Source of the DNA: Pseudomonas sp. P8_229
GTDB taxonomy: Bacteria; Pseudomonadota; Gammaproteobacteria; Pseudomonadales; Pseudomonadaceae
Direction of reading: 5' to 3'
Assembly (NCBI RefSeq): GCF_034008635.1
Contig: NZ_CP125378.1
Coordinates: forward strand, 1-64,000
DNA length: 64,000 nucleotides
Part shown: in pieces, positions 32,246 to 56,764 of the stretch
Layout of the letters: every line of letters begins with the position of its first letter
Position numbering within the stretch: position 1 is the stretch's first letter
The notes under the pieces: generated by a model
Told to the model about the DNA's origin: nothing
Database searches by the model: none
What the model saw: the letters and a program-made list of their open reading frames with translations, nothing else
Made by a program: the position numbers and the translations under genes

Positions 32246-33403
32246 ATGGATAGTATTCAGGGCGTTTATCCAATGGCAACGGTTCTGGTGGTCGACGACA
32301 CTCCCGACAACCTGATGTTGATCGCCGAGTTGCTCAAGGACAAATATCGGGTCAAGGCCGCCAACAGCGGCGAGAAAGCCTTGCGTCTTCTGCAGGCTGA
32401 CCCGCTTCCCGATCTGATCCTGCTGGACATCATGATGCCGGGCCTGTCCGGTTATGACGTGGCCGAGCAGCTCAAGCGTGATGCTCGCATTCACCCTATA
32501 CCGATCATTTTCCTGACCTCGATGACCGCCACGGAAGACGAGATTCGCGGCCTGAGCCTGGGCGCTGCGGATTACATCACCAAACCGATCATCCCCCCGG
32601 TGCTCATGGCCAGGGTCGAAACTCAGATCAAGCTCAAGGCCGTTGCCGATTTCCTGCGCAATCAGAACGATTTTCTGGAGCAGGAAGTGCAACGTCGTAC
32701 CCGTGAGGTGATCGCCATCCAGGATGTCACGATCCACGCCATGGCCTCGCTGGCCGAAACCCGAGACAACGAAACCGGCAACCACATTCGCCGCACCCAG
32801 CACTACATAAAACTCCTCGCCGAACTGCTGCGCGAGCACCCGCGCTTCCGTCACTTCCTCGACGAGGAAACCATCAAACTGCTATTCAAATCGGCACCGC
32901 TGCATGACATCGGCAAGATTGGCATTCCTGATCGCATCCTGCTCAAACCGGGTCGGCTCACTGCCGAAGAGTTCGAGATCATGAAGACCCACACCACATT
33001 GGGCCGCGACGCGATCCAGCACGCAGAGGATCAGTTAGGCATAGACGTCGATTTCCTTCAGCTGGCCAAGGAAATTGCCTACGGCCACCAGGAAAAGTGG
33101 GATGGCAGTGGCTATCCGCAAGGTGTGGTCGCCGACGACATCCCGATCAGCGCCCGGTTAATGGCCGTGGCAGATGTCTACGATGCACTGATCAGCCGCC
33201 GCGTGTACAAGCCCGGCATGCCCCATGAGCAGGCGGTGGAAATCATCCGCGAAGGCCGGGGCTCGCATTTTGATCCGGACATCTGTGACGCGTTTCTCGC
33301 CAATGCCGAGCAGTTCCGCGAAATTGCCGCGCGGTTCGCCGACAGCGACCAGGACATGGCCAGGCAGTTAGCCCAGCTTGAGCAGATCGCCGACCTTCCC
33401 TGA
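32246..33403 (+). CDS. RpfG-type response regulator with HD-GYP phosphodiesterase domain
   Basis: This 385-aa cytoplasmic protein has a receiver domain (residues 9-130, acidic pocket 'VVDDTPDN', phosphoacceptor D61 in 'LLDIMMPG', 'TKP' lysine) and a short coiled coil (130-160). The HD-GYP domain (165-365) has 'HDIGKIG' with H220-D221 and 'DGSGYP'. HD-GYP proteins hydrolyse c-di-GMP at a metal centre. The usual H-H-E motif before DGSGYP is H281-Q282-E here, a subfamily variant. I chose the ATG at 32246 because AGGGAG is ten bases upstream. The hybrid kinase gene follows after 42 bases; they are very likely cotranscribed partners. Confidence 0.9.
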   Translation: MDSIQGVYPMATVLVVDDTPDNLMLIAELLKDKYRVKAANSGEKALRLLQADPLPDLILLDIMMPGLSGYDVAEQLKRDARIHPIPIIFLTSMTATEDEIRGLSLGAADYITKPIIPPVLMARVETQIKLKAVADFLRNQNDFLEQEVQRRTREVIAIQDVTIHAMASLAETRDNETGNHIRRTQHYIKLLAELLREHPRFRHFLDEETIKLLFKSAPLHDIGKIGIPDRILLKPGRLTAEEFEIMKTHTTLGRDAIQHAEDQLGIDVDFLQLAKEIAYGHQEKWDGSGYPQGVVADDIPISARLMAVADVYDALISRRVYKPGMPHEQAVEIIREGRGSHFDPDICDAFLANAEQFREIAARFADSDQDMARQLAQLEQIADLP

Positions 33404-33445
33404 GCCACGCGCATCACTCTGCACATCCAGTTAAAGAGGCCGTTT

Positions 33446-36400
33446 ATGAACAGACTGTTCGAGATGCTCGAGCGCCTGTCTCTGCGCAGTAAATTGATCA
33501 TCGGCTTCGCTGCGCTGCTGATATTGATCCTGATACTGGGCGTGCAAAGCCTGCGCACCCAGTATTCACTCAGAAATGAAATGCAGCAGTTGTACCAACA
33601 GGATCTGGTGGGGATCCAGCATGTGCAGGAGGTTCGGGTGCAGTTGCCGCATCTGTTGCTGGCAATGCAACGCGCGATCGCGACCAACAATGCAGACATC
33701 CGCATCAGCGCCAGAGCCCAGATGGATGCCGCCCAGGAGCGACTCCATGAAGCGCTGGAGCAGGTTCGTCCAACGCTGCGCAGACAGAGCAGTATCAGCA
33801 GCCTGCTGGAGTTCGAAGTGGTATTGCAGCGCCTGCAAAAAGATGGCGATGAGGCGCTGGAACTGGCCGGCAAGGGCTCCCTGGGGCAGGCCTTGATGTT
33901 GCTCAACAGTAAGGATTTTCTTGAGCTGGAACAGGGAGGCGACGGGCTGCTCACCCAGATTGAAAAGAACAAGGAAACCGACATCCACGATACGGCAAAG
34001 AACCTCGCGGAGTACGCACAGCGCAGCACTACGATCACGTACATCTTGCTGCTGGGCGGCTCGGCGCTGGCCTTGCTGTTGACCTGGCTGGTCAGCTATT
34101 CCATTCGCGTTCCGCTGAACCGCGTGCGTGTGGCCGTGGACGAATTGGCGTCGGGCAAGCTGGATGGTCAGATCCCTCACACCGACCTTCGCAACGAAAC
34201 CGGCGACCTGGCGCGCGCCATCGCCACGTTGCAGCAGGAGGCTTGTCAACTTGAGCGCCAGCGTTGGGTGAAGACCCACGCCTCACTCCTGCAAGTCGAT
34301 CTGCAACAGGCCGAGACGCCGCAACAATTGGCCCAGGCTTTTTTCAGCCATATCGCGCCCCAGTTGGGCATGTGCCAGGGGGCGCTTTACGTTCTCTATG
34401 AAGGCGCATCACGTCTGCGATTGGTCGGCGGTTATGCGGTGGACAGTGCGCACCCACTGCCCGTTGATCTTGAGCTCGGTGAAGGGTTGCTCGGCCAGTG
34501 TGCGCTGGATCGCCAACCCCGCCAGCTCAAGGATCTGCCCGAACAGTTCTGGCATGTGCATGCGCAGTTGGGCGCAGCCCCCGCCAGCCACCTGCTGGTT
34601 CAGCCCGTGCTGCGTGGCGAGCGCTTGCTCGGAGTTGTGGAAATGGCTGGCTTTCGCTCGCTGGAGGAGAACGAGGCGTTGCTCTTGCAAGAAGTCCTGC
34701 CCAGGCTGGCCGGTGCGATGGCCATTATGGAACGCAGCGAGGCGGCCCAGGCGTTGCTCCAGGAAACACGGCGCCAGGCTGACGAAATGGGAGCGCAAGC
34801 CTTGCAGCTGGAACACCAGGCCAGAGAGCTGGAGGCCCAGCAGGCAGCATTGCGCGCCACCGAGGCCTGGTACCGCGGCATCATCGAGGCGGCACCGGAC
34901 GGCATGCTGGTGCTGGGAGCCGACGGCCGCATCCTGATGACCAACCCGCAAATGGACAGCCTGTTTGGCTACGCCCCCGGCGAGCTGATTGGCGCCAGCA
35001 TCGAGCGCCTGGTACCGCAGGCTGCCCGCGAGCGGCACGTCAGGTTACGCGACGGGTTCATTGCCAGCGGCGGAACCCGGCAGATGGGTGGCGATCTTGA
35101 CGATTTGAGCGGGGTACGCAAAGACGGCAGTCTGTTCTCCGTGGAAATCGGCCTTTCGCACCTGCCGCGTCTGGAGGGACGTGGTGTCTGCGTATGTGCC
35201 TCGGTGCGCGACGTGAGTGAGCGCCGGGCGATGGAGGCAAAGCTGCGGACCGCCAGCGATCGCCTGAACCTGGCGCAGGAGTCCGGTGACATCGGTCTGT
35301 TCGACGTTGATCTGGTCAGCGGCACAAACTATTGGACGCCACAGCTCGAAACACTGTTCGGGCTGGAGCCTGGCCGATTCGGTGGCACGCTGGCGCACTG
35401 GAAGGCGCTGGTGCATCCCGAGGACGTGGCACGGGTCAGCAGCACGTTCGAGAACGCCGTTCAGAGTGGCGATGATCGCGTCGAGTTCGACTTCCGGATC
35501 GTGCGCAAAAACGATGGGCTGGTGCGCACGCTCCGGTCGCTGAACCGCTTCTCACGCACGCCAGACGGTAAGCCATTGCGCGCAACCGGCATCAACATCG
35601 ACGTGACAGCACTGGCAGAGGCAAGGGCTGCGGCCGAAGAAGCCACGCTGGCCAAGAGCGAATTCCTCGCCAACATGAGCCATGAAATCCGTACGCCGAT
35701 GAACGCCATCATCGGTATGAGCCACCTGGCACTGCGTACCGAACTGGACAAACGCCAGCGCAACTACATTGAAAAGGTACATCGCTCGGCGGAAAACCTG
35801 CTGGGGATCATCAACGACATCCTCGACTTCTCCAAGATCGAGGCCGGCAGGATGAGCCTCGAACAAGCGCCTTTCCGCCTGGAGGACGTACTCGACAGTT
35901 TTGCTGCCATGATTGGCCTGAAGACCGAGGACAAGGGCCTCGAGTTGCTGTTCCAGATCCCGCCCGACTTGCCCACGGCACTGCTGGGCGATCCCCTGCG
36001 GCTGGGACAGGTGCTGATCAACCTGGGCAACAACGCTGCCAAATTCACCGAGCGCGGTGAAATCGTGGTCGGCGTGGAGGAAGTGGCTACGCACACGGAC
36101 AGTGTGCAACTGCATTTCTGGGTGCGCGACACGGGCATCGGCATGACCGTCGAGCAGTGTTCACGCCTGTTTCAGTCATTCAGTCAGGCGGACAGTTCGA
36201 TCACCCGCAAATACGGGGGCACCGGGTTGGGCTTGTCTATCTCGAAGAAGCTGGTGGAGCTGATGGCCGGCCGAATCTGGGTTGAGAGCGAGCCGGGGGT
36301 CGGTTCCACGTTCCATTTCCAGGTACAACTCAGCGTGCAGCACGACGTTCAGCCGCGTCGGATGTTCAAGGCCAACGAACTGCTGGGCATGCGGTTATTG

Positions 36401-37825
36401 GTCGTGGATGACAACGCCAGTGCCCGTGAAATTCTCTCGGGCATGGCGCGCAGCTTTGGCCTGGAAGTGGATGTCGCGCAGAGTGGTCGGCTGGCGTTGC
36501 ACATGTTGGACGACGCCGAGCACAAGGCGCTGCCTTACGATCTGGTCCTGATGGACTGGCGGATGCCCGGCATGGATGGCATGGAGGCCGTGAGCAAAAT
36601 GCATTCCGCCAGCCTGATGCATACGCCGCCGGTCATCATGGTGACCGCTTTCGGCCGCGAAGAAGCCCGCGAAGAAGCCGAACGCCAGGGCATCCAGTTG
36701 CCGGTGGTACTGACCAAACCGGTCACCCCCTCCTCTCTGCTCGAGGCCATCGGTGTGGTGCTGGGTAAAGACCCGGAGGGCGATACCCGTGCCGGCGAGC
36801 GTTCGCAACAGAATGCCGGCACCGTGGCCAGCCTGAGTGGCGCGCGTCTGCTGCTGGTGGAAGACAACGAGCTGAATCAGGAACTGGCCTGCGAGCTGCT
36901 CGAGAGTGTCGGAATAAGCCTGCGACTGGCCTGTCATGGCAAGGAAGCCTTGGACATCCTGGCCGAGGATGACAACTTCGACGGTGTGCTGATGGATTGC
37001 CAGATGCCTGTAATGGATGGCTACACCGCCACCCGGCGGATTCGCCAGCAGCCGAGCCTCGACGCTTTGCCGGTGATCGCGATGACAGCCAACGCCATGG
37101 ACGGTGACCGCGAGCGCGCACTGAGCAGTGGCATGAACGACCATATCTCCAAGCCCCTCAACGTCGAGGCCATGTTCGCCACCCTGGCAAAATGGATCAA
37201 GCCACGGCCTGCTCAGACCTTGCTGAGTACAGGTTTCTCCGATGGTTTGCCAGATCGTCTCGAGGGCATTGACCTGGCAGCGGGTCTCGCCACCTGCATG
37301 GGCCGGCGGGACCTCTATTTACGGCTGCTGTGCAAGTTTCGCGACACTCAGACCGGCTTTACCGAACAATTCCAGGCCGCACGGATCGATCCGGATGTGG
37401 GCGCCGCCGAACGGCTGGCTCACAGTTTGCGCGGCACGGCCGGCACCATCGGCGCCAAAGCCCTGGCTCAGGCCTGCGCTTTGCTGGAGCAGGCCTGCCA
37501 GAACGGTGAGTCCGCAACGCAGCTGAAGGCGCTGGCGACACAGGTCGAGCACTGCCTGCTCCCGATCCTGACGGCTCTGGCCGACCTCAAGGCAAACACA
37601 CCGACCGCCACCGGTGACGGCCTGCTGGAGGGTTCGGCAATCAGCCCGCAACTGAACAGGCTCAAAGAGCTGTTGGCCGAGGGTGACACGGCGGCTTTGG
37701 ACACACTTGCCGGATTGCGCAACATGCCACTCGATCGGGTGTTGGCAGAACGTCTGGAACGGGTCGCGGTGCAAGTGGAACGGTTCGACTTCGACCGTGC
37801 CTTGAAGCTTTTGCAGGATGAATGA
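33446..37825 (+). CDS. hybrid sensor histidine kinase with GAF, two PAS, two receivers and Hpt
   Basis: This 1459-aa inner-membrane kinase has, in order: TM1 at 17-36, a helical periplasmic sensor (37-195), TM2 at 197-219, HAMP (220-270), GAF (about 285-425) and a coiled coil (430-470). PAS1 (475-595, 'AAPDGMLVLGADGRI') and a PAS/PAC (605-725) follow. HisKA has the phosphoaccepting histidine in 'NMSHEIRTPMN' (about 748) and HATPase_c has 'NLGNNAAKF', 'DTGIGM' and 'GGTGLGLSI' (855-970). REC1 (985-1105, 'LMDWRMPGMDG'), REC2 (1135-1255, 'LMDCQMPVMDG') and Hpt (about 1290-1390, 'HSLRGTAGTIG') complete it. All phosphotransfer residues look intact. A final 60-residue helical tail follows. The likely outputs are the HD-GYP regulator upstream and the LuxR-type regulator downstream. 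Confidence 0.92.
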   Translation: MNRLFEMLERLSLRSKLIIGFAALLILILILGVQSLRTQYSLRNEMQQLYQQDLVGIQHVQEVRVQLPHLLLAMQRAIATNNADIRISARAQMDAAQERLHEALEQVRPTLRRQSSISSLLEFEVVLQRLQKDGDEALELAGKGSLGQALMLLNSKDFLELEQGGDGLLTQIEKNKETDIHDTAKNLAEYAQRSTTITYILLLGGSALALLLTWLVSYSIRVPLNRVRVAVDELASGKLDGQIPHTDLRNETGDLARAIATLQQEACQLERQRWVKTHASLLQVDLQQAETPQQLAQAFFSHIAPQLGMCQGALYVLYEGASRLRLVGGYAVDSAHPLPVDLELGEGLLGQCALDRQPRQLKDLPEQFWHVHAQLGAAPASHLLVQPVLRGERLLGVVEMAGFRSLEENEALLLQEVLPRLAGAMAIMERSEAAQALLQETRRQADEMGAQALQLEHQARELEAQQAALRATEAWYRGIIEAAPDGMLVLGADGRILMTNPQMDSLFGYAPGELIGASIERLVPQAARERHVRLRDGFIASGGTRQMGGDLDDLSGVRKDGSLFSVEIGLSHLPRLEGRGVCVCASVRDVSERRAMEAKLRTASDRLNLAQESGDIGLFDVDLVSGTNYWTPQLETLFGLEPGRFGGTLAHWKALVHPEDVARVSSTFENAVQSGDDRVEFDFRIVRKNDGLVRTLRSLNRFSRTPDGKPLRATGINIDVTALAEARAAAEEATLAKSEFLANMSHEIRTPMNAIIGMSHLALRTELDKRQRNYIEKVHRSAENLLGIINDILDFSKIEAGRMSLEQAPFRLEDVLDSFAAMIGLKTEDKGLELLFQIPPDLPTALLGDPLRLGQVLINLGNNAAKFTERGEIVVGVEEVATHTDSVQLHFWVRDTGIGMTVEQCSRLFQSFSQADSSITRKYGGTGLGLSISKKLVELMAGRIWVESEPGVGSTFHFQVQLSVQHDVQPRRMFKANELLGMRLLVVDDNASAREILSGMARSFGLEVDVAQSGRLALHMLDDAEHKALPYDLVLMDWRMPGMDGMEAVSKMHSASLMHTPPVIMVTAFGREEAREEAERQGIQLPVVLTKPVTPSSLLEAIGVVLGKDPEGDTRAGERSQQNAGTVASLSGARLLLVEDNELNQELACELLESVGISLRLACHGKEALDILAEDDNFDGVLMDCQMPVMDGYTATRRIRQQPSLDALPVIAMTANAMDGDRERALSSGMNDHISKPLNVEAMFATLAKWIKPRPAQTLLSTGFSDGLPDRLEGIDLAAGLATCMGRRDLYLRLLCKFRDTQTGFTEQFQAARIDPDVGAAERLAHSLRGTAGTIGAKALAQACALLEQACQNGESATQLKALATQVEHCLLPILTALADLKANTPTATGDGLLEGSAISPQLNRLKELLAEGDTAALDTLAGLRNMPLDRVLAERLERVAVQVERFDFDRALKLLQDE

Positions 37826-38093
37826 GGGTGGAATTATTTCCTGCACCCATGGCGACAGGCGCTCAAAGAGCCGCTAGCGAGAACCGGCAAGGTATTTGGA
37901 AACAAAATGAAAAACGCTTCAATGCAGATCAGAACTGAGGATTTTACCCAAGCAATCAATGGATTGGGCACCGACCTGAGTACGTTAATTCACTAGTAGT
38001 CAGTAAAGTCTGCGAAGCAAGGCATTGGTGGTGTAAGAGAATTAGAAGCTGGCGGACGACAAAGCATTTTGATTTTAGGGAAAGGATGACCTT
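37826..38093. other. intergenic region between the kinase and the LuxR-type regulator
   Basis: These 268 bases contain a 29-codon reading frame at 37907-37996 ('MKNASMQIRTEDFTQAING...') with only a weak GGA upstream. AAAGGA at 38081-38086 serves the small ORF at 38094. AT content is higher than in the neighbouring genes, in line with acquired or decayed DNA. No terminator is evident after the kinase gene. Confidence 0.35.
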
Positions 38094-38285
38094 ATGCATG
38101 ACAACTTGTGGCTGGTATTCAATCGCCGTTCTGGACGATCGAAGGGTAAAGCTTCAAAAGCAGTTCCGTTGCTCAACTTATCCATAATTGCTGAGGCTGA
38201 AATCAGCAATCCGCCGTGGGTCAAATTTCAATTGGCAGGGTGGGTCAATTTTCCATCAGCGCCAACAGCACGATGGCTGGAGTAG
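38094..38285 (+). CDS. possible 63-aa leader ORF before the response regulator
   Basis: The ATG has an excellent AAGGA seven bases upstream, and the stop is four bases before the ATG of the regulator gene, so translation could be coupled. The first 40 residues are basic then hydrophobic ('NRRSGRSKG', 'VPLLNLSII'). The last 25 are encoded by an IS-end-like tandem repeat, so the present ORF may be an accident of insertion. It matches no family I know. Confidence 0.35.
   Translation: MHDNLWLVFNRRSGRSKGKASKAVPLLNLSIIAEAEISNPPWVKFQLAGWVNFPSAPTARWLE
38216..38263 (+). mobile_element. IS21-like terminal repeat remnant
   Basis: Two tandem imperfect copies of a 22-24-base unit, GTGGGTCAAATTTCAATTGG (from 38216) and GTGGGTCAATTTTCCATCAG (from 38240), abut each other. 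Multiple short tandem binding sites with the core GGGTCAATTTT are, as I recall, a feature of IS21-family ends. No transposase is nearby, so this would be a leftover end. It lies directly upstream of the LuxR-type regulator start. Confidence 0.4.
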
Positions 38286-38289
38286 AAAA

Positions 38290-39012
38290 ATGGCCTTTTT
38301 GTTGGTAGACGATCAGCCCATTATCACCTACGCCTTGAGTGAGTTGCTCAAGGATGCATTCCCCAACGCAGCCCACATCGACGCGGCTGGCGATAGTCTG
38401 GCAATGCTCAAATGTTTGACGAGTAAACATTACGACTTTCTCATTCTGGATCTGATTATGCCTGGCGTCGGACAAAGTATCGCCATGCTACGGGCGGCAC
38501 TGAGTGAAGCGCCGAATCTCGGGGTGGTGATCTTTTCGGGGAATAAGTCACCATGCCTGGCGCTCGCTGCACTGGAACAGGGCGCTAGTGCCTACGTCTG
38601 CAAATCCAGCGGATATCATCTGATCATCGAGGCCATCCAAACGCTCAAAGCCGGGAAGGTTTTTTGCGATCCGGTGATCGACCTTGGCAGCGCCCACATG
38701 CATCCTTGGTACTCACTCAGCGACCTCGAGTGGCATGTGCTGCTGTCACTGGCCCGTGGCGAATGCTTGCAAGTGGTAGCCAAACGCCAGAGCCGCGACT
38801 ACAAGACCATCGCCGCTCACAAATACAACGCCCTGAATAAACTCGGACTGAGTGCCGGTGTCGAACTGGCGAATTATCTCGTTACGCAAGGATTGGGCTA
38901 TCTACTCAACGATCTGACGCTCGACTGCACAGATCCAAGCGGCTTAACACGAACACTACAGAACGTTTCTACAGCCAGCCGCAAGAGTTTCCACCCGTCA
39001 CGAGGGCAGTAG
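38290..39012 (+). CDS. LuxR/NarL-type response regulator
   Basis: This 240-aa protein has a receiver domain (1-120, 'LLVDDQPII', phosphoacceptor D54 in 'LILDLIMPG', 'CKSSG' lysine) and a LuxR-type HTH (about 140-205, 'YSLSDLEWHVLLSLARGE', 'VVAKRQSRDYKTIAAHKYNALNKLGL'). The HTH fits the BvgA/RcsB group, though 'RQSRDYKTIAAHK' departs from the usual 'S.KTV..H'. I chose the ATG at 38290 (GGAG eight bases upstream). It lies between the hybrid kinase and the giant adhesin gene and is convergent with the latter, so it is the best candidate for a local transcriptional activator of the adhesin. Confidence 0.88.
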   Translation: MAFLLVDDQPIITYALSELLKDAFPNAAHIDAAGDSLAMLKCLTSKHYDFLILDLIMPGVGQSIAMLRAALSEAPNLGVVIFSGNKSPCLALAALEQGASAYVCKSSGYHLIIEAIQTLKAGKVFCDPVIDLGSAHMHPWYSLSDLEWHVLLSLARGECLQVVAKRQSRDYKTIAAHKYNALNKLGLSAGVELANYLVTQGLGYLLNDLTLDCTDPSGLTRTLQNVSTASRKSFHPSRGQ

Positions 39013-48400: not shown

Positions 48401-51400
48401 TGGTGATACCGGTGCCGCTGTTGCCGATCACGCCGGCCACAGTGTTGTTGCCAGTGTTGGTACCACCTAGGGCGACGGTGCGTGCCACGTTGGGATTCGA
48501 TAGCCCGATTGTGCCGGAATTAGTGAAGTTGATCGCGCCTGTCCCCGACGATTCGATGAACGAAACGCCGCCCGCCAGCGTGAACAGTCGATTGCTGCTG
48601 TCGCCCGAGCCGGTGTAGCGCAGGGCTGAGTCGTTGCCAATCACCAGGTTGGAGGCCGCACTGGACGCAGCGCCGATACCGCTGGCCGTGCCGCCATTGC
48701 TGAGTTTGCTAACTCCGAGCACGCCACCGCTGATGGTGGTGACACCGGTGTAGCTGCTGCTGTTGTTGGTCAGGATCCAGGTGCCGGTGCCGGTCTTGGT
48801 TAACGAGCTGACACCCGTACCGTTGTTGTCGAGCTGCGCCGACAGAGTGTTGTTGCCGGTGTTGGTACCGTTGAGCGTCAACGTGCGCGCGATGCCGTTA
48901 CCGGTCAATGCAATGGCGCCGACGTTGGTCAGGTTCAATGCTCCTGTGCCCGAGGAATCCAGCGAGCCACCGCCCGCGCCGAGCGTGAACAGGCGGTCGC
49001 TGCTTTGGCCCGCGCCACCGTACGACAGAGTGGCGCCATTGTTGATGACCAGGTTGCTTGCGGCCGCGCTGCTGGCGCCGGTGCCACTGTTGCTGCCGCC
49101 GTCGGCCAGGCAGTCGACGGCCAGGGTGCCGCCGTTGATGGTGGTGGTGCCGGTGTAGCCGTTGTTGCATCCGGTCATTTGCTGGACCTGCACACCACTC
49201 TTGACCAGGTTGCCGGTGCCATTGATGTTGCCTGCATAGGCAACGCCAGCCGTATTGTTGCCGGTGCTGACCGTCAGCGTCTGCCCGCCAAGGTTGATGT
49301 TGCCGCCCGTGGTGCCGCCACCTTGCAACCAGGTGAACGACGGATTGAAACCGTTGGCATCCAGCGTGGCGCCGGCCACGTTGCCCATGTTCAGGTAGCC
49401 GTTGCCAAAGGCCGTGGCTGAGCCGGCGCGCAGGATGCCGGCCTGATCAACCACTGTGCCGCCGGTATACGTATTGTTGCCGGATAGCACCAGCGTGCCG
49501 GGCCCTCTCTTGTACAGGGTGCCGGCGCCGCCCACCACCCCACTGATGCCCAGGGTGGTCGTCGCACCAGTGACGTTAAGCACGCCATACCCGCCCTGCA
49601 ACGTGAATCCGTGATCGGTGCTGACGCTGCCACCGGTGTAATTGAGATAACCGCTATTGAACAGCAGGTTGGAAGCAGCGCTAGACGATGCGCCGATACC
49701 GCTTGCCTGCCCGCCATTGGCCAGACAATCGACGGTAATCTGGCTGTTGTTGTTGATGGCGGTGGCGCCGGTGTAGGTATTGTTGCAACCGGACATGATC
49801 TGGGTGCCACCCGCCTGTGTATAGCCGCCGCTACCGCTGATGATTCCGCTGAAGCTCCCGCCGGCGAGCGCCGTTAGCGTGGCGGAGCCCAGGGTCACGT
49901 TGCCGACGCCCTGGAGCGCCCCGATCGAGGTGTTGAAACCATTGAGATCTGCCGTGGCTCCGCTCGCCACGCTCAGGTTGTTATTTGTGCTGCCAAAAGC
50001 CTGGGTAGACCCTGCGCGCAGCGTGCCGGCAGTGACCGAGGTACCGCCCGAGTAGGTATTGGTGCCGGAGAGCACCAGGGTGCCCGCCCCGTCCTTGCGA
50101 AAACCATCATCACCCACTGCCGTACCGCTGACAGTCAAGGTGGTGGCCGCGTTGCTGACACCAATGGCACCAACGCTGCCGCCAGCACCGGGGGTGCCGA
50201 CGGTGAAACCACGGTCGGTGCTGGACGTACCACCGAGGTAAGCGAGCGTGCCGCCATTGAGGACGAGATTGCCCGAGGCATTGCTGGACGCACCGATGCC
50301 GCTGACCAGACCGCCATTGGCCAGGGTGTTGACCGCCAGCGTGCCGCCGGTGACGGAGGTGATGCCGGTGTAGTCGTTGCCCGCGTTGCCCAGCGTCAGC
50401 ATGCCGACGCCGGTCTTGGTGAAACTGGCGCCATCGGTGCTGGTGACCAGGCCGTTGAACGTCAGGTCGCTGGCGGCACCGGTGACATCGATGGTACTGC
50501 CCAGGATCGCGCCGGATTTGGCGATGGTGAAACCGCGGTCACTGGTCGTCGTGGCACCGGTGTACCGCAGTGTGCTGCCTTCCAGCAACAGGTTGGACGA
50601 CGTTGCGGACGAGGAACCGATGCCGCTGGCCGTGCCGCCGTTGGTGATGTTGCCGACCGAGAGGATCCCCTGCGACACGATGGTGGCGCCAGTGTAGGTG
50701 TTGTTGGCGTTGGTCAGCGTGACCAGCCCGGCACCGGCCTTGGTGAAGCCGACTCCGCCGCCGTTGTCGACGATCTGGGACGCTATGGTGAAGTTGCCGG
50801 TGCCATTTTGCTGAACGCCCAGTACACCACCTCCGGAGGTACCGGTGAGCGAACCGCCCGTGATCGTCTGATTGTTGGCCCCGACCGACGGCGCAACGAT
50901 GATCGTGCCATCCACCCCTAGAATATTACCGGCGCCCACAGTCACGGTGGAGTTGGCTGCCGCGGTGTACTGCAAGCCGCCGATCTGCTTGCTGCCGCTC
51001 ACCGTGCCAAAATAGGGCGAGTTCGCAGTGCCACCGGCATCGCTGAGGATCTCGTTGTTCAGCCAGGTGGACGCATTGTCCTTGTTGACATAGTCCGCTG
51101 TGGTGAAGGCAAGGATGTTGCCACCGACCACCTTGGCGTAATTGGTGCCGTTGACCGTGGCCCAACCGCCCAGGGTGCTATTTGTGGTGGTGATGTTGCC
51201 GCTGCCCGGCAGGTTGAAGTTGACCAGGCCACTGGTGCGGGTGATCGCCCCCAGGTTGAGCGCCATGCTGCCGCCGGTGCCGGATGTCGCGCCGATCGTG
51301 TTGTTGCCTCCAGTGACGAGGAGACCATTGAACGTCTGCGTGTTGGCCTTGCCAGCAGCACCGATCGCATTGAGCACCCCGCCGCCCATTTTCAGGGTCG

Positions 51401-53369
51401 AGGCGCTGGAAATGATGTTGCTGGTGGGCGCGGTGGCTGCACCGTAGTCCAACCGCAGCGTGCCGCCGTTGATCGTGGTCGCACCCGTATAGGTGTTGGC
51501 CCCGGTGAGGGTCTGCGTGCTGGCCCCGGTCTTGGTGAGGCCACCGCTGCCGGTGATGTTGCCGGCGTAGGCGGTACTGATACCCGCAGCATCGTTCAGG
51601 GTAAGCGTCCCCGATCCCAGGTCGACGGTGCCGCCCGTACCGGCCAACGAGGAAAGCGTGATGTTCAGATCATTAATATCCAGCGTGGCGCCGCTGTTCA
51701 CAACGACCCCATTGGTTGCCCCAAAGGCCGTGGTGCTGCCGGCACGGAGTGTGCCGCTGTTGACAATAGTGCTGCCGGTGTAGGTATTGGCGCCGCTGAG
51801 TGTCCAGGTGGACGCGCCGCCCTTGCTCAACCCTCCCGTGCCGGAAATGACGCCCGAGAACAGGTTGTCGGCGCCAATGTAGCTGCCGCCGAGCGTGCCG
51901 GTGTTGGTGAGTGCCAAGGTGCCACTGAGCGCAAGCGTGCCAGTGCCATCGTTGTTGATCGCGCCGCCGTTTAGCCCCCATGTCCGATTGCTGCTGTCGC
52001 CAGCGCCGGTGTAGGTCACGGCGCCATTGGTGATGCCGATGCCATTCCCCACCGCGCCGGCGCCAAAGGAACTGGCGGTGCCGATGTCCTTGAACGAACC
52101 GGCCCGTACGGTTACACCGTTGATGCCGGTCGCGGTCGTATACGTATTGACGTTGCCAAGCGTGATGGTTCTTCCGGCGCTACCGGTATAGGAGACCAAG
52201 CCATTGCCTGAAATGATGCCCAGCAATGACATGTCGGCCGAATTGGCATTGAAGTTAGTTCCATAGGTGCTGCCACCCGACACGACCATGTTGCCGGTCA
52301 GTGTCAACGTGCCTGTCCCTATGTTGCGAAAGGTGAGCGGTGCCACGGTGCCCGCGGCGTTGAATTGCCAGTTGCGGTTGGAACTGCTGCCGGCACCGAA
52401 ATAGCTCAGGGTTGCAGGAACGCCACCGCCGGACCCAAGCGTGATGGTGCCATTGGCCACCGTCGTTGGCGCACCCAGGGAACTGGCCACGCCCAGATCG
52501 GCGACGGAGTTGAACGAAAAGCTGCCGCCATTCCCGTTGCCGAAAATGGTCGCCCCGGTATAGTTGCTAGCGGCGTTGGTGAGGCTGACACCGCTATTGA
52601 GCCTGAGTCCACCAGCACCGGTGAAGCGGGCCGAGCCCACGCCGGCGCCGTTCAGCAGGACGCTGCCGCTGGTGAGGGTAATGTTCCGGCTCGCTGCGAG
52701 GGCACCAGTGCTGCTCAAGCTTGTGCCGCCGGCGATGGTGATGCCGTTGCCCGCCGCACCCAGCGCGGAATCGCCATTGAGGGACAAGCCGCCGGCATTG
52801 ACCACGACACCACCGCTGAAGATGTTGGCACCGTTGAGGTTGAGGGTACCGGCCCCCGCCTTGATCAGACCCGCGCTGCCAGCCAGGATCGAGTTGATGC
52901 TGGCTGCGCCAGTGACGGTGATGGTGGGCGTGATCCCCCCCAGAGTCAGGGTGCTGCCGTTGAGCGTGTAACCGGTGGTCAGGAAGGTGAGGTTGTGCAC
53001 GGTGATCGGCGTGCCCAGGGTTATGGTGCCGGCGGTGCCGCCGAAAAAAGCGTCGTCGAGGGTGGCATTGTTCCAGGCGCTATAGGGGCCGCTGACGCCG
53101 TCGCTGTTGGGGCTCCAGAATGCGCTGGAAAGATTCCAGGTGCCGGTACCACCCGAGCCCAGTGCCGTGCCGTTGGTATCCCAATACCGATCGGCTGCCT
53201 GCAACAACGGGCTGAACGCCATGCCCGCCGACAGCAACAAGGGCAGTATCCGGAGCCTGCGCCCCCGCCGCCCGCCGCTGCGACCTTTGCCATGAGATTT
53301 CGCATATTCGCTGACTGCTACGAAAGTACCTGCACGTCCACTCCAGACAATGCGAAATACATGATTCAT
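39441..53369 (-). CDS. giant type Va autotransporter adhesin, 4642 aa
   Basis: The protein starts with an extended signal peptide (ESPR: 'MNHVFRIVWSG', 'FVAVSEYAKSHGKG'), then a hydrophobic core and cleavage after 'LLQA' near residue 59. Residues about 60-1760 are PATR beta-helix repeats ('TLSGANTYTGSTIVNSGTL'). Residues 1770-4110 are a different repeat array, 'TLNVDGSLQG', 'GDLGAGNDVLDV', 'FALGDGDDTF', 'NFEFLQKDN', with about seventeen acidic Gly/Asp motifs of RTX appearance. A linker (4110-4340) leads to the autotransporter barrel ending in 'VTVGVRWSW'. All 12 cysteines form six pairs 18-22 residues apart. AAGGGAAA precedes the ATG. It should be exported by Sec, inserted by BAM and displayed as a very long fibre for attachment or aggregation. 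No protease or kinase domain is seen. Confidence 0.9.
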   Translation of the reverse strand: MNHVFRIVWSGRAGTFVAVSEYAKSHGKGRSGGRRGRRLRILPLLLSAGMAFSPLLQAADRYWDTNGTALGSGGTGTWNLSSAFWSPNSDGVSGPYSAWNNATLDDAFFGGTAGTITLGTPITVHNLTFLTTGYTLNGSTLTLGGITPTITVTGAASINSILAGSAGLIKAGAGTLNLNGANIFSGGVVVNAGGLSLNGDSALGAAGNGITIAGGTSLSSTGALAASRNITLTSGSVLLNGAGVGSARFTGAGGLRLNSGVSLTNAASNYTGATIFGNGNGGSFSFNSVADLGVASSLGAPTTVANGTITLGSGGGVPATLSYFGAGSSSNRNWQFNAAGTVAPLTFRNIGTGTLTLTGNMVVSGGSTYGTNFNANSADMSLLGIISGNGLVSYTGSAGRTITLGNVNTYTTATGINGVTVRAGSFKDIGTASSFGAGAVGNGIGITNGAVTYTGAGDSSNRTWGLNGGAINNDGTGTLALSGTLALTNTGTLGGSYIGADNLFSGVISGTGGLSKGGASTWTLSGANTYTGSTIVNSGTLRAGSTTAFGATNGVVVNSGATLDINDLNITLSSLAGTGGTVDLGSGTLTLNDAAGISTAYAGNITGSGGLTKTGASTQTLTGANTYTGATTINGGTLRLDYGAATAPTSNIISSASTLKMGGGVLNAIGAAGKANTQTFNGLLVTGGNNTIGATSGTGGSMALNLGAITRTSGLVNFNLPGSGNITTTNSTLGGWATVNGTNYAKVVGGNILAFTTADYVNKDNASTWLNNEILSDAGGTANSPYFGTVSGSKQIGGLQYTAAANSTVTVGAGNILGVDGTIIVAPSVGANNQTITGGSLTGTSGGGVLGVQQNGTGNFTIASQIVDNGGGVGFTKAGAGLVTLTNANNTYTGATIVSQGILSVGNITNGGTASGIGSSSATSSNLLLEGSTLRYTGATTTSDRGFTIAKSGAILGSTIDVTGAASDLTFNGLVTSTDGASFTKTGVGMLTLGNAGNDYTGITSVTGGTLAVNTLANGGLVSGIGASSNASGNLVLNGGTLAYLGGTSSTDRGFTVGTPGAGGSVGAIGVSNAATTLTVSGTAVGDDGFRKDGAGTLVLSGTNTYSGGTSVTAGTLRAGSTQAFGSTNNNLSVASGATADLNGFNTSIGALQGVGNVTLGSATLTALAGGSFSGIISGSGGYTQAGGTQIMSGCNNTYTGATAINNNSQITVDCLANGGQASGIGASSSAASNLLFNSGYLNYTGGSVSTDHGFTLQGGYGVLNVTGATTTLGISGVVGGAGTLYKRGPGTLVLSGNNTYTGGTVVDQAGILRAGSATAFGNGYLNMGNVAGATLDANGFNPSFTWLQGGGTTGGNINLGGQTLTVSTGNNTAGVAYAGNINGTGNLVKSGVQVQQMTGCNNGYTGTTTINGGTLAVDCLADGGSNSGTGASSAAASNLVINNGATLSYGGAGQSSDRLFTLGAGGGSLDSSGTGALNLTNVGAIALTGNGIARTLTLNGTNTGNNTLSAQLDNNGTGVSSLTKTGTGTWILTNNSSSYTGVTTISGGVLGVSKLSNGGTASGIGAASSAASNLVIGNDSALRYTGSGDSSNRLFTLAGGVSFIESSGTGAINFTNSGTIGLSNPNVARTVALGGTNTGNNTVAGVIGNSGTGITTLAKNGSGTWVLIGNNTYTGNTVVNDGNLTIGDGNTSGNLGTGNVIVDSATSTLSMNRSDTVIFNAAMSGPGTFAQVGTGTTTLTAGNSIGGATVSAGTLDVNGVLNTGSIAMSSTSTLNVDGTVQAAGGTTAAITGDAGASTINVNSGATLRVNGDLGDGSDALNVTGTLDTGATVLNLGAGNDTLTINDGVINGAGVDAGAGTADSLVINNALAKTFGGFSGFEQLTKQNVGTLTLTGNQSYSAGTAINGGALNVGGSLDTSTVSMADATTLNVVGTVRGMGGTTAILTGSAGANTLNINSGATLQASGSLGGGTDNVTLAGTLNTGAAALDLGAGDETVILHDGAVISGVGINAGTGNDQLVLDNALALTFNGGATAGFESLLKQNGGVTTLTGSQSFSVGTTINGGALNVVGALETPSVNLADSVTLNVDGSLQGVGGAATTVTGSAGANTLTVGAGGHLVASGDLGGGDDFLDVAGTLDTGGGTFALGDGDDTLIIHDGTHIIGAVTAGAGTDTFATDINTSADVGAVQGFETLTKTGVGSLNFNGPTGSDFTTVNVLAGILNINAAASLTGVFSATVASGAALNVNGSLGFTTGSDSFTVAGNVAGTGTVDMLDGDDQLTLQDGADLSGLTTAINGGLGIDTLTADIATTAALGGAVNFETLIKSNVGTLNLTGPVTSQFDTVLVRGGTLHIAAGTIVDPQTTVVSSGATMTVDGTYQGTAGNDTFTVSGTVNGTGTINLLGGDDVLTLNDGADLSGLANPLDGGAHGAGDTVILNNAGALALNGGNIVNFEFLQKDNTGTATLTGTQSFSGGTAISGGTLDVDGAMNTPTVTLADNTTLNVDGSLQGAGGTAATITGSAGINTVTVNGTLVATGDLGASDDVLDVVGTLDTLGGTFALGDGDDTFTVHDGTHIIGTIDGGAGVDTRVYDINLNADLGQLVNFEGVTKTGTGTLNLNGPGATDLQEVSVLGGTLNIGPAGSVVATPGSTLTTVVGSGATLNVDGSYGCGDGNDAMTVSGTVSGTGTIDLCGGDDTLTLNDGAVLSNVVSGGDSINGDTVVLNNANAFTFDAGKTTNFEFLQKENTGIATLIGAQGFNNVNVAAGTLDVDGTLETSDMVLFGGTTLNVDGVVRGFNGAEAVIVGDDDVNTITIGAGGLLFATGDLAGGNDVLDVFGELNTNGNDFSGVLSLGDGDDLFTLHDGAVVDGVVYGGDGTDTAIADINLTANLGALAQFEVLTKTGGGTLNINGDTVGVLFPSTIQNVNVLEGTLNIGPDGIVDGPADGSPLNTLVASGATLNVDGSYGCGSGNDTMTVGGTVRGSGTIDLCDGDDTLILNDGANLSGLVNALSGGDGTDTVLADIAGSVVLGGVVNFETLTKTNIGTLNVDGPASSSFTTVNVLGGTLDIGAAGAINGVVTTTVASGATLNVDGGYTGSAGNDSFDVSGTVSGSGTIDLAAGDDTLTLNDGAVLSNVIDGGAHGAGDTVVLNNANTLSFDASDTINFEFLQKDNTGTATLTGTQGFSSGTTINGGTLDVDGALSTPTVTLADNTTLNVDGSLQGAGGTAATIIGSVGTNTVTVGAGGTLLASGDLGAGNDVLDVIGTLDTQGGTFALGDGNDTFIVRDGTNIIGTIDGGAGLDTRVYDINLAADLGALVNFEGVTKTGVGTLDINGPAATDLLQVDVLGGTLNIGPSATVSVQDTTVGNGATLNVDGSFTGTSGNDTMTVAGTLTGTGTVDLLEGDDTFTVRDGADLSGLANAVDGGAGTDTFLADIAGSATLGGAINFETLTKTNTGTLHVDGPASSSFTVVNVEGGTLDIGAGGAINGAVTTTVASGTTLNVDGGYTGSAGNDSFDVSGTVSGSGIIDLAGGDDTLTLNDGAVLNNVIDGGANGAGDTVMLNNAAAMTFDSSHTINFEFLTKDNVGVATLVGTSTFSGGTALNAGTLDVAGTLNTPTVALGDNTTLNVDGRLQAVGGTAATLTGSTGTNTVSIGAGGTLLASGDLGAGNDVLDVAGTLDTRGGIFALGDGDDTFVVHDASVVLGTIDGGAGLDTRVYDINLTADLGELVSFEGVTKTGAGVLNINGPGATDLQEVSVLGGTLNVGSDASVVATAGSTLATVVGSGATLNVNGSYGCGAGNDTMSVSGTVSGSGTIDLCAGDDTLTLNDGAVLNNVIDGGANGAGDTVMLNNAAAMTFDSSHTINFEFLTKDNVGVATLVGTSTFSGGTALNAGTLDVAGTLNTPTVALGDNTTLNVDGRLQAVGGTAATLTGSSGTNTVSIGAGGTLLANGDLGAGNDVLDVAGTLDTRGGIFALGDGDDTLIIHDGSKILGTVAAGAGNDIFNADIAVSADLGAVQSFETLSKTNVGVLNINGPLGSEFATVNVLAGTLNVGANGSVMAQNTTVAAGATLAVQGSYTGTAADDSFTSRGTVRGMLDFGAGNDSASFIGGDLSGLRGLDGGDGNDHLSFSGLDFSTGAPALNNWERVELLDGSAFSLASPLDLNGGLLTIDSTSRLLARSGASVGGSVHNDGLINVGSHRLAISGDYSGNGALDVQVAASAGTSGGLDIGGDVVGTTRVNFANDGTEAKPGTTIRVIGSPNDNPSTAGGFVSDKTVRLNGSVLAWNFAQGKNDSGWYLSSADKLLLPEIPGYTVVPDIGYSMTLDNNRLLFDRMAGGRGDNPYCNRSEEERTRIGLEWFGTCEGLWLATIGSHLSMESNPGFEFDGNSTGLYAGYDHLFVNEQAYRMRGGLFIGQQRGNYSTTGESSTGQVSVGRSNVDMDALAFGAYGSLDWQSGTYVDLSLTALLPDAHIRSSDGFREQVHGDILSLSGQVGHRYPLSNGWVVEPQFQASAIHMRWDDKTDSSGKQLNIKDDVLGLVRTAVRVEKTIKTDGGATLKPWLAAGLQDTLGENSTNLEVTLPGGTRQNFSGHDLGLNATLDVGLEAQVTQDLRVFGTASVIGVNLGGSDVSQQQVTVGVRWSW
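41430..41905 (-). repeat. intragenic near-identical duplication in the adhesin, copy A
   Basis: About 475 bases are nearly identical (a handful of differences) to 42294-42769, offset by 864 bases, exactly 288 codons. The encoded 155 residues differ at only two positions (S/T and N/S). Other repeat units of the gene are far more divergent. Confidence 0.85.
42294..42769 (-). repeat. intragenic near-identical duplication in the adhesin, copy B
   Basis: Partner of 41430-41905. The two copies flank a module containing a cysteine pair ('SYGCGAGND ... IDLCAGDD'). The match suggests recent tandem duplication or gene conversion that keeps the frame. Confidence 0.85.
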
Positions 53370-54100
53370 GGTCTTTCCCTTTTTTCTTATTGGTTGTGCC
53401 CCTGTCGAGTTACCCGCTCAACAGTTGCGCGCTGGCCCCTACACACGCAGCAAATGCACGCCGGTACATCAAATCTAGTCAGGAATATCACTAAGAAAAT
53501 TCTGAAAGTGCGCAAATTACCGTAGCGTCGCCCAACAGACGGTCAAGGAAATTCCCGGCAGCACATGAATTGACGGGCTAGAGTTTGCGAGCGTTCTGGA
53601 GAACGCGCGGGTCGTACGCGGGCAGATCCATGGAGCATTTGGCGATGGCGACGTTCGGAGAAACGTCTGCACACATTGGTTAGGCGTACGGCCCCCGCAA
53701 TTGTCAGAATGGAGCAGCGCGGCAAGAGTGATCGGTCCGCCAAGACTCGTCCCGCACTGACCTTGCCCGGATCGATATGAGGCACCCATCTCAAGGGAAA
53801 GCTTTGTGCAATTCACCATCACTTGGGCAATGAAATAAAAGCAGGGCGAACTGCATCAGAGCGGCGCAATGCCGAAAAATGACGCTATCCGGCATGCGGT
53901 GCAACTCAAGTCAAGGGTAACAACGACCTAGCACACAATGTTTATCCGTGCGCAGTTTGGAAAGCATCCATTTTGCATGCTGCCAAGAAAAATCTTATCC
54001 GAGTAGTCAATATTTTTTCGACGCACGTATTTCCTGACAGACTAACCTATGAAGTGTTCCGCTCCGCTATGCCCCCAGTTGGCTTTGTCGAGATTTCATC
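53370..54100. other. 731-bp divergent regulatory region between the adhesin and the GGDEF-EAL gene
   Basis: No convincing gene lies here. A 101-codon minus frame at 53517-53822 has poor codon use, many cysteines and no ribosome-binding site. The right-hand 200 bases are AT-rich (for example CAATATTTTTTCGACG near 54008). Both flanking genes are transcribed outward, so their promoters must lie here. I could not single out a convincing -35/-10 pair. Confidence 0.5.
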
Positions 54101-56764
54101 ATGCCATGGCGATCACATTCCTTGATGGTCCGTCTTACGACAGGTATTGCTTCCTTCATGTTGTTTGTCTATGTGCTGGCAGGTTTGGCGCTCTACCAGA
54201 GTAAAAAACAGCATGAGCTTCAAGCCGCCATCACAGCGGAGAACCTGGCGCGATCCTTGGCGATCAATGTCACTGGCGTCCTTGATAAAGTTGATGTGGG
54301 CCTGTTCGCTGTGGCAAGGGAAGTGGAGCGGCAAATGGCTGCTGGAGGCATCAATGAGACATTGCTGGATGGATATCTAACACAACAGCAGACAGCGATT
54401 AGAGATTGCGAAGGGCTATGGGTAGCTGATGAAAAAGGCGATGTCCCTTGGGGAACAATATTGACCGCCGGCAAAACGAATATTGCCGACAGAGAGTATT
54501 TCCAACGCTTGCATGAGAATTCGCATCTTGGAATGGTTATATCCAAACCTGTGATAGGACGCACCACAAAAACCTGGTCGGTCCTTCTGTCCAGACGCAT
54601 CAACCACATTGATGGCTCCTTTGCAGGCGTGGCGCTGGGCTCGTTACGCATGGTGGATTATTTTACCGAGATATTCTCCACTTTTGATGTTGGAAAACAA
54701 GGAGTCATCGCAATTCGTGATGATGAGATGGCACTCATAGCCCGGTATCCGAAAGTAGCGAGTGAAAGTGGAAAAGTTGGCTCCAAGTTGGTGTCAGCCA
54801 AGGCTACAGAAACTATTCGTGCGTTCCCGAATGATGGGAGCTACACCGCAGTTGCTCCACTAGACGGCATTGAGCGACTCTACAGCTATCGAAAAATTGC
54901 TAATTACCCTCTCTATATCATCGTCGCAACGAGCACCGACGAGTTTCTCGCTCCTTGGCGAAAGGAAGCAGCCATAACACTGTTACTGATAACAATTTTC
55001 ACCCTGACTATTCTTGTTTACACGCGTAACAGTTATAGACGTGAAACTGAAGTTCTTAAGGCTAAAAGAATGGGGCGCTTTCGGACCGCATTCCGCGCCA
55101 GCCCAGATAGTCAGGTCATCACCCGCCTTGACGATGGGAGCCTTCTTGAGGTCAATGATGGATTTACCCGCATATTTGGCTGGACACGGGAAGAGACTTT
55201 TGGAAAAACAGTATTTGATATCGACATTTGGCGTTATCCGGAAGAGCGTCACGAATCAGTTCGACTCTTACAGCAACAAGGATACTTCATTGATCATGAA
55301 GCTGAATTTGTAAGCAAGGATGGCCGCACTTGGCCCGGCCTGATTTCGGCGCACATAATGACCCTGGATGACACTCAATGTATTCAAGGTATCATCCGCG
55401 ACATCAGCGACCGGAAAGATGCCGAACAACAGATCCAAAGACTGTCATTCTCTGACCAGTTAACAGGGTTACCAAATCGCCGACTCTTTATGGATCGGCT
55501 GGAACAAGCATTGATTTCGAGTATTCGCCATCAATGGATAGGCGCATTGATGTTTGTCGATCTCGATGACTTCAAGTCCATCAACGAAACTCAGGGGCAT
55601 GGCCAAGGCGACTTGTTTCTAAATGAAATAGCCCAACGATTGAGGAGTTGTGTGCCGGAGGGCAACACCGTCGCCCGCCTTGGAGGCGACAAATTCGCTC
55701 TTATTCTGGAGAGCAAGAGCGCCAATCCGCAAGAGGCGGCGAACCATGCTGAAACCATTGGCGAAAAAACCCTGCGGGAGATCGAGCAGCCTTATGAGTT
55801 GTGTACATCGACACTGCACCGAACCTGCAGCATAGGTATTACTCTGTTCGGCGAGCGGGATGAGGATGCAAGCGAGCCCCTGAAACGCGCCGAGTTGGCC
55901 ATGTACCAAGCCAAAGCCTGCGGACGCAATGTCTTGTGTTTTTTCGACCCCGAGATGCAGACGGTCGTCAGCGCTCGAATCGCACTGGAGGAAGGACTGC
56001 GCAAAGCTATCAAGCAACACCACATCCTGTTGCACTATCAACCGCAGGTCACGAAGGAAGGTCGCATTACAGGCGTGGAGGCGTTAGTGCGCTGGAAAGA
56101 CACGCGCGGCGGCATGATTTCTCCGGCAGAGTTCATTCCAATGGCAGAGGCGTCGGGCTTGATTTTCCCGCTAGGCCAGCAGGTGCTCGAAATAGCTTGT
56201 AAGCAGTTGGCCGTATGGGCGTATAGACCGAAGTTCTCTCACCTGACCATCGCCGTCAACGTCAGTGCTCGGCAGTTTAATCAGGATGGTTTTGTCGAAC
56301 AAATACAGTCTGTGCTCGAGCTCTCCGGTGCCAATCCTCATCGTCTCAAGCTGGAAATTACTGAAAGTATGCTGGTCTCCAGCATCGAGGACGTAATAGC
56401 CAAGATGAATGCGTTGAAATCCATCGGCGTCGGCTTTTCGCTGGACGACTTTGGCACCGGTTACTCCTCCCTCTCGTATCTCAAGCGCCTGCCGCTGGAC
56501 CAACTCAAGATCGACCAGGGATTCGTACGCGATATCCTGGTGGACCCAAACGACGCTGCAATCGCCAGGACAGTGGTTGCGCTGGCAAACAGTATGAGCT
56601 TGTCGGTCATTGCTGAGGGGGTTGAAACACGCGCACAGCGTGACATGCTGGCTGCCTTGGGTTGCCATAACTTCCAAGGATATTTATTTGGTTGCCCCAT
56701 GGCCATAGAAGCATTGGAGGCTTACATCGATACAGGGATTCGCCACGCTCTTCCAGGCCGGTAG
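54101..56764 (+). CDS. PAS-GGDEF-EAL protein, likely c-di-GMP phosphodiesterase
   Basis: This 887-aa inner-membrane protein has TM1 at about 13-32, a periplasmic dCache/CHASE-like sensor (33-285, 'DREYFQRLHENSHLGMVIS', 'SRRINHIDGSFAGVALGSL') and TM2 at about 290-310. PAS (325-445), GGDEF (450-610) and EAL (625-880) domains follow. The GGDEF motif is GGDKF at 528-532 with no I-site R-x-x-D, so cyclase activity is unlikely. The EAL domain keeps E660 in 'EALVRW', 'ITESML', 'DDFGTGYSSL', 'KIDQGFV' and 'AEGVET', so it should hydrolyse c-di-GMP to pGpG. It is divergent from the giant adhesin gene across a shared 731-bp region, which suggests it tunes adhesion. Confidence 0.88.
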   Translation: MPWRSHSLMVRLTTGIASFMLFVYVLAGLALYQSKKQHELQAAITAENLARSLAINVTGVLDKVDVGLFAVAREVERQMAAGGINETLLDGYLTQQQTAIRDCEGLWVADEKGDVPWGTILTAGKTNIADREYFQRLHENSHLGMVISKPVIGRTTKTWSVLLSRRINHIDGSFAGVALGSLRMVDYFTEIFSTFDVGKQGVIAIRDDEMALIARYPKVASESGKVGSKLVSAKATETIRAFPNDGSYTAVAPLDGIERLYSYRKIANYPLYIIVATSTDEFLAPWRKEAAITLLLITIFTLTILVYTRNSYRRETEVLKAKRMGRFRTAFRASPDSQVITRLDDGSLLEVNDGFTRIFGWTREETFGKTVFDIDIWRYPEERHESVRLLQQQGYFIDHEAEFVSKDGRTWPGLISAHIMTLDDTQCIQGIIRDISDRKDAEQQIQRLSFSDQLTGLPNRRLFMDRLEQALISSIRHQWIGALMFVDLDDFKSINETQGHGQGDLFLNEIAQRLRSCVPEGNTVARLGGDKFALILESKSANPQEAANHAETIGEKTLREIEQPYELCTSTLHRTCSIGITLFGERDEDASEPLKRAELAMYQAKACGRNVLCFFDPEMQTVVSARIALEEGLRKAIKQHHILLHYQPQVTKEGRITGVEALVRWKDTRGGMISPAEFIPMAEASGLIFPLGQQVLEIACKQLAVWAYRPKFSHLTIAVNVSARQFNQDGFVEQIQSVLELSGANPHRLKLEITESMLVSSIEDVIAKMNALKSIGVGFSLDDFGTGYSSLSYLKRLPLDQLKIDQGFVRDILVDPNDAAIARTVVALANSMSLSVIAEGVETRAQRDMLAALGCHNFQGYLFGCPMAIEALEAYIDTGIRHALPGR

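Follow-up and report, generated by a model that had tools for sequence, protein, structure and literature searches.

Do signalling genes packed round an adhesin gene form one circuit inherited together, or do they merely lie together? The question is raised by a locus of Pseudomonas sp. P8_229 (assembly GCF_034008635.1), situated in the 64,000 nucleotides at positions 1-64,000 of contig NZ_CP125378.1, which is the whole stretch analyzed here and is referred to as the window. Five genes follow one another at this locus, encoding an HD-GYP response regulator, a hybrid histidine kinase, a LuxR-type response regulator, a giant adhesin, and a GGDEF-EAL protein (table 1). The regulator and adhesin genes are convergent, and the GGDEF-EAL gene is divergent from the adhesin gene. 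A preliminary description of this DNA saw a self-contained unit, in which one kinase signals to two targets, the HD-GYP protein and the LuxR-type regulator, and in this way sets the level of cyclic diguanosine monophosphate (c-di-GMP) and the display of the adhesin. The five frames are indeed all open and side by side as claimed, with no further gene recognized among them. Signalling genes lying round an adhesin gene need not make up one circuit, though, and comparison with other genomes leads us to favor, as probable but well short of certain, a mosaic of three separately inherited modules, in which the LuxR-type regulator would directly switch the adhesin gene and the kinase and HD-GYP protein would form a separate relay. 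Two pairs of genes look real, and their combination is seen in the window genome only.

The genomes sampled represent one per species; absence was judged on the best E-value of each genome, and few best candidates were scored per genome, three in the kinase search and six in the searches with the regulator and the GGDEF-EAL protein. Among the matches listed, full-length relatives of the kinase occur in 10 of 149 Pseudomonas-genus genomes, window genome included. For the nine others, we compared 32-40 kb around the kinase gene, keeping, for each gene at each locus, the single best piece (E 1e-10). The HD-GYP gene is present beside the kinase gene in every one of them (68-94% identity). Conversely, these stretches contain no orthologue of the regulator, the adhesin, or the GGDEF-EAL protein; the GGDEF-EAL hits found there are partial only (36% and 30%). 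With the window genome and Pseudomonas sp. Leaf48, 11 neighborhoods were compared, and the window genome alone has all five genes together. Conserved linkage of the five, a gene-order check proposed with the preliminary description, is rejected for the genomes compared.

Among the genomes that could be read, only Leaf48 encodes a close relative of the regulator (79% identity); it carries all five genes, distributed over three contigs (G149:C23, C32, and C20). In this draft assembly, the contigs are separate, and the modules they carry may lie at any distance from one another. The kinase (a 1336-aa frame, 66% and 55% identical over two parts) and the HD-GYP protein (75%) are encoded on C23, at ~205-210 kb. 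On C32, the adhesin gene is again convergent with the regulator gene. Because this contig runs on past the adhesin gene into a glutamate symporter gene, the GGDEF-EAL gene is not beside the adhesin gene in Leaf48. It is found (82%) on C20, a contig of 18.6 kb, flanked by the gene of a RecD-like helicase and by a frame that holds a LysR-family regulator. A self-contained five-gene unit is not supported in the genomes compared: three modules stand on three Leaf48 contigs, and the kinase and HD-GYP genes lack the other three in the 32-40 kb compared from 9/9 relatives. The regulator and adhesin genes look like a second real pair, judged from two genomes.

Table 1. Coordinates of the features of the locus, numbered from the first nucleotide of the window.
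Feature	Position	Strand	Basis or remark
REC-HD-GYP response regulator	32195-33403	+	Pfam Response_reg, HD_5; adjoins kinase in 9/9 relatives
Hybrid histidine kinase, two receivers and Hpt, 1459 aa	33446-37825	+	Pfam
HD-GYP and kinase DNA block	32152-37813	+	89-90% identical in four close kin
RcsB-like LuxR-type response regulator, 240 aa	38290-39012	+	Homologue starts; three best PDB matches RcsB
Giant type Va autotransporter, predicted adhesin, 4642 aa	39441-53369	-	ESPR, PATR, Autotransporter barrel
ESPR extended signal peptide	53226-53369	-	PF13018, residues 1-48
Autotransporter beta-barrel domain	39519-40277	-	PF03797, E 2e-25
Adhesin leader common to Leaf48	53365-53515	-	128/154 alignment columns identical (83%)
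RcsAB-box-like palindrome TAAGAAAATTCTGA / TCAGAATTTTCTTA	53492-53505	.	13/14 bases kept in Leaf48
Regulator-adhesin cassette common to Leaf48	38264-53515	.	DNA homology, interrupted by 39061-39437
dCache-PAS-GGDEF(GGDKF)-EAL protein, predicted phosphodiesterase	54101-56764	+	Pfam, motifs
Segment absent between the flanking genes in three of four close kin	31202-56970	.	blastn, 25.8 kb

The DNA homology between the window and Leaf48 ends at 38264, 53515, 53959, and 56730 (the last part of this comparison omitted pieces starting inside the adhesin gene). Three intervals, 37826-38263, 39061-39437, and 53516-53958, are unmatched in the Leaf48 stretches compared. Relics of genes were considered for these fillers and rejected, as four translated pieces drawn from them have no Pfam match; one piece (39069-39269) has, by eye, a tentative likeness to the final strands of a barrel of the outer membrane. 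The 377 bp of 39061-39437 separate the regulator from the adhesin gene, and the equivalent gap in Leaf48 is ~70 bp. The homologues themselves also differ in size. The Leaf48 kinase (L051:5040-9047) is ~123 aa shorter than that of the window, whose residues 515-725, comprising the second PAS region and part of the first, are unaligned, with ~78 aa in their place in Leaf48. The Leaf48 adhesin homologue spans ~18.4 kb (L023:10866-20719, L054:672-9251) versus 13.9 kb in the window. Instead of one frame, three overlapping open reading frames cover it, which may reflect frameshifts or assembly errors.

This arrangement bears directly on the circuit first proposed, with one kinase feeding two outputs, which we consider quite unlikely. 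Such a circuit would suit a locus in which the Hpt kinase and the regulator are neighbors on the same strand, the receiver and Hpt motifs are present, and all five genes recur in a second genome; the available text of PMC3842833 provides a precedent in RcsC-RcsB and PvrS of P. aeruginosa. Yet the kinase and HD-GYP genes occur without the regulator in all nine relatives, whole genomes included, the Leaf48 regulator and adhesin genes lie on a different contig from the kinase gene, and the 464-bp gap between kinase and regulator genes contains the unmatched filler 37826-38263. The first half of the proposal, from kinase to HD-GYP protein, is well supported by a pair conserved in 9/9 relatives and Leaf48. 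For the second half, in which that kinase would also act on the LuxR-type regulator, comparative support does not go beyond the presence of the five genes in Leaf48. The same division applies to adhesin switching: control by the LuxR-type regulator is moderately supported by the pair kept in Leaf48, whereas control of display by c-di-GMP again has nothing comparative behind it but the Leaf48 gene set.

The kinase combines 4HB_MCP, HAMP, GAF, two PAS regions, HisKA, HATPase, two receivers, and Hpt (Pfam), and its H-box, the Asp motifs of both receivers, and the Hpt His motif are all present. With the HD-GYP gene it constitutes a conserved gene pair, probably an operon, and signalling from the kinase to the HD-GYP protein is well supported by the conservation of this pair. 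The best solved-structure match of the HD-GYP protein is 4r8z, which we take to be PA4781, and its HD and GYP motifs line up with those of 4mcw and 4r8z. As in PA4781-type proteins, the receiver precedes the HD-GYP domain. The window protein differs in that its gene is the conserved neighbor of a gene for a likely kinase and in that the HHE motif reads HQE, here and in 10/10 relatives. The protein is probably active, though not certainly so. The activity of PA4781 depends on phosphorylation: the unphosphorylated receiver masks the active site and phosphorylation opens it, and the kinase was still sought in 2013 (PMC3774798, available text). If the chemistry is like that of PA4781, the REC-HD-GYP protein would receive its phosphate from the membrane hybrid kinase, through the kinase's receivers and Hpt, and phosphorylation would open the catalytic site, lowering c-di-GMP or pGpG. 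The conserved pair supplies a PA4781-type phosphodiesterase with a natural candidate for its kinase.

The longest frame of the LuxR-type regulator has 274 codons for amino acids and opens at TTG 38188. We assigned the start to ATG 38290, whose Met is the first residue of all 11 homologues returned (207-240 aa, the window's own cluster among them). The protein has the traits of the RcsB-type class, namely a receiver with a phospho-acceptor Asp, a LuxR-type helix-turn-helix (HTH), and RcsB as its nearest solved relative, all three best PDB matches being RcsB. On the other side, its GerE match scores 21.1 bits, under the Pfam cut-off of 23.5; the NCBIfam models PRK15369 and MctR outscore RcsB, and none of the 25 models shown reaches its cut-off. 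The receiver DD, D, S, and K residues are kept in the homologues P0004 and P0006-P0011. In an alignment with RcsB, read against PMC5829831 (available text), K180 of RcsB has a counterpart in the regulator. P0012, a homologue named from Pseudomonas resinovorans (54%), has Asn-Glu in place of Asp-Asp and Ala at the phospho-acceptor column, which suggests a phosphorylation-independent form.

The regulator is rare. No orthologue was found in 397 other genomes of the genus, where identity among the matches listed is at most 32% and the best E-value is 1e-21, versus 6e-185 for the regulator itself, nor in 94 other genomes drawn as relatives of Leaf48, a draw that overlaps the 397. Clustering at identities of at least 80% gives five clusters, including the window's own and one from P. 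kilonensis. Plasmid carriage of close relatives was rejected, as none of the 339 plasmid records that match exceeds 60% identity. A relative in Lysobacter niastensis (47%) has no adhesin relative in the 20.6 kb fetched around it.

Its convergent partner encodes, in one chain, the components of a type Va autotransporter: a signal peptide, a passenger with 12 PATR stretches, and a C-terminal Autotransporter barrel, recognized in a separate scan of the last 350 aa. Adhesive function is predicted. The earlier assignment of the adhesin to type V is confirmed by this combination of ESPR, PATR stretches, and PF03797 barrel. No orthologue of the barrel was identified in 148 other genus genomes, identity being at most 31% among the matches listed.

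In front of the adhesin gene, homology with Leaf48 extends through the leader and stops abruptly at its 5' end. The first 27 bp of the shared leader, TTGCGCACTTTCAGAATYTTCTTAGTG, differ by a single base between the two genomes, and this block contains the palindrome. The site has three mismatches to the RcsAB-box consensus in both genomes. Shuffled versions of the 161-bp leader match this consensus as well as the palindrome does in 31 of 2000 cases, and 2 of 397 leader-length tiles of the window score as well against it, one being the palindrome site itself. Over the entire window, three matches are found versus 0.63 expected, two of them representing both strands of the palindrome site, and 3 of 100 shuffles reach three. 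RcsB contacts bases in the half-sites TTAGGAA and TCTAAGA (PMC5829831, available text); the half-site in the window is ACTAAGA. The cupD1 promoter of P. aeruginosa requires the GAA bases of its RcsAB-like site (PMC3842833, available text). A candidate RcsAB-box-like site in front of the adhesin gene is seen in two genomes, the window genome and Leaf48. We propose that this rare cassette works by binding of the RcsB-like regulator to the palindrome before the autotransporter gene, which would turn the gene on. Since the Leaf48 cassette comes without a kinase gene, the regulator would be phosphorylated in trans, by a kinase encoded elsewhere, or would act unphosphorylated. Control of the adhesin by the regulator is moderately supported, and the pair constitutes a testable one-regulator, one-adhesin system with a candidate binding site.

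The flanks of the locus are informative about its origin. In three close kin (G019, G111, and G055), orf30740 and the major facilitator superfamily (MFS) gene abut: the blastn blocks 30636-31201 and 56971/56975-58172 are neighbors, with just 180 bp of the MFS gene matching in G055 (pieces of at most 60 bp were omitted from this comparison). The junction was not seen within the 40 kb fetched from the fourth (G062). In the same three genomes, the HD-GYP-kinase block lies ~19-21 kb from the junction. Over 7 kb of the rpoB region, the window is 98.1-98.4% identical to the four close kin and 94.6% to Leaf48. As these four lack the regulator and the more distant Leaf48 has the cassette, either horizontal gain in the window genome or repeated loss would account for the distribution. 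The segment missing from close kin also includes, directly upstream of the HD-GYP gene, a DUF4337 protein gene (31363-31941, + strand), with no match in the fetched stretches of relatives at E 1e-10.

Such a patchy distribution could also arise from a chance pile-up at an insertion site, with the regulator controlling something else. The distinct GC content would agree with this, as would the filler at 53500-53980, which matches 1 of 149 genomes, that of the window itself. Genes for c-di-GMP enzymes are moreover abundant. With 23 EAL-domain matches in the whole genome (~1 per 277 kb), an EAL gene would be expected within ~5 kb on either side of any one gene in a few per cent of cases, by our own estimate, and adjacency alone is therefore weak evidence. 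We nevertheless regard a mere pile-up as unlikely, since Leaf48 preserves both the convergent adjacency of the regulator and adhesin genes and the leader palindrome.

The fifth protein associates dCache, PAS, GGDEF, and EAL domains. The GGDKF variant is an inactive form of GGDEF. Since GGDKF replaces GGDEF in the window protein while EAL and DDFGTG are kept, the protein is likely a phosphodiesterase with a non-catalytic GGDEF domain. GGDKF is also found in 9/9 homologues of at least 80% identity (P0017-P0025, of which P0017 is the window's own cluster), with EAL and DDFGTG conserved; the search scored 7995 candidates. These nine clusters again include P. kilonensis. No orthologue was found in 148 other genus genomes, where none of the matches listed exceeds 56% and these are partial. 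The block 53959-56730 is 83% identical to a Leaf48 contig other than that of the adhesin. A box-like site at 53984-53997, before the GGDEF-EAL gene, is not conserved in Leaf48 and was treated as due to chance. As a third, separately placed module, the protein would lower c-di-GMP in response to a periplasmic ligand. Seven kilobases to the left of the locus, a CHASE-GGDEF protein (23304-24863, - strand) is a predicted diguanylate cyclase, an activity opposite to those predicted for the HD-GYP and EAL proteins.

Although apart in Leaf48, the adhesin cassette and the EAL protein may nonetheless belong together functionally, because both are rare and the clusters of the regulator and of the EAL protein both include P. 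kilonensis. The two would then be members of one functional set, divided between contigs in Leaf48, in which the EAL phosphodiesterase counteracts the regulator as PvrR does RcsB. Their co-occurrence in the window genome and Leaf48, the close homologues of both named from P. kilonensis, and the lack of a GGDEF-EAL orthologue in the 148 genomes speak for such a set. We find it doubtful: the EAL protein has no receiver and is not a PvrR-like response regulator, the box-like site before its gene is not conserved, the two P. kilonensis entries may stem from different strains, and base composition differs, with a GC content of 0.497 at 54001-56000 and mostly 0.61-0.65 across the adhesin gene.

Several points weigh against the mosaic of three modules that we prefer. 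S184 of RcsB is Ala in the regulator (alignment read against PMC5829831, available text). The box statistic is modest, and a genome-wide box regulon was rejected, with four sites versus three for a reversed-pattern control, so that no wider regulon is apparent. Only one second genome with the cassette was readable; it is a draft, and "separate places" means separate contigs. That genome also has all five genes, and in the window the Hpt kinase and regulator are same-strand neighbors, as suits the circuit first proposed. Few candidates were scored per genome, so a relative could be missed. Finally, sampling was of one genome per species, the window's own being represented by one strain, and we lowered our confidence slightly on this account. 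Joint control of the modules by the neighboring kinase is possible. A bolder extension, which we consider very unlikely, is that a kinase-less cassette of an RcsB-like regulator and one autotransporter moves between genomes and uses the Hpt relay of its host. In the window strain, its neighbors would be a rare EAL phosphodiesterase and a pair made up of a BarA-like kinase and HD-GYP, a Roc-like two-output circuit being assembled from unrelated parts.

The Lap system of Pseudomonas, with which the locus had been contrasted, consists of LapA, LapD, and LapG. Lap shares with the window a large adhesin and nearby c-di-GMP enzymes. LapG-type cleavage motifs read TAAG, PAAG, or AAAG. Cleavage of the window adhesin by such a protease was rejected, as none of these motifs occurs in its 4642 aa; a looser AAG[SVT] is present at residues 338, 2355, and 2764. 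The export signals are also of type V and not type I, as the contrast had stated. The sole paper listed for a combination of autotransporter, adhesin, adjacent response regulator, HD-GYP, and GGDEF-EAL concerns a Lap-like system (PMC13090378).

What the contrast with Lap missed is a nearer precedent, the Roc/Rcs-Pvr control of Cup fimbriae. The RcsCB-PvrSR and RocS1-RocA1-RocR systems of P. aeruginosa link an adhesive fimbria to an HTH regulator, to sensor kinases, and to a c-di-GMP-degrading response regulator with an EAL domain; RcsB raises pvrR as well as cupD (PMC2696094; PMC3842833, available texts of both). According to the same texts, the adhesin genes (cupD on PAPI-1; cupB and cupC) adjoin an oppositely oriented gene for an RcsB-type HTH regulator, an Hpt kinase and a c-di-GMP-degrading protein are encoded nearby in an accessory location, and the adhesin promoter has an RcsAB-like site; the same features occur at our locus, where the site is a candidate. 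A circuit in which one kinase serves both outputs would accordingly be a variant of Roc/Rcs-Pvr rather than a parallel to Lap. The window differs in its adhesin, a type Va autotransporter and not a chaperone-usher fimbria, and in its receiver-bearing c-di-GMP enzyme, which is HD-GYP and not EAL; the EAL protein has no receiver and is no counterpart of the receiver-bearing EAL antagonist. Nor are regulator and Hpt kinase genes kept together beside the adhesin gene, as judged from Leaf48 and the nine relatives. At the level of titles and abstract openings, no description of such a regulator-autotransporter cassette was found among the papers listed. Roc/Rcs-Pvr is the closest precedent, and what stands out at the locus is a rare cassette pairing an RcsB-like regulator with a giant autotransporter and a candidate operator.

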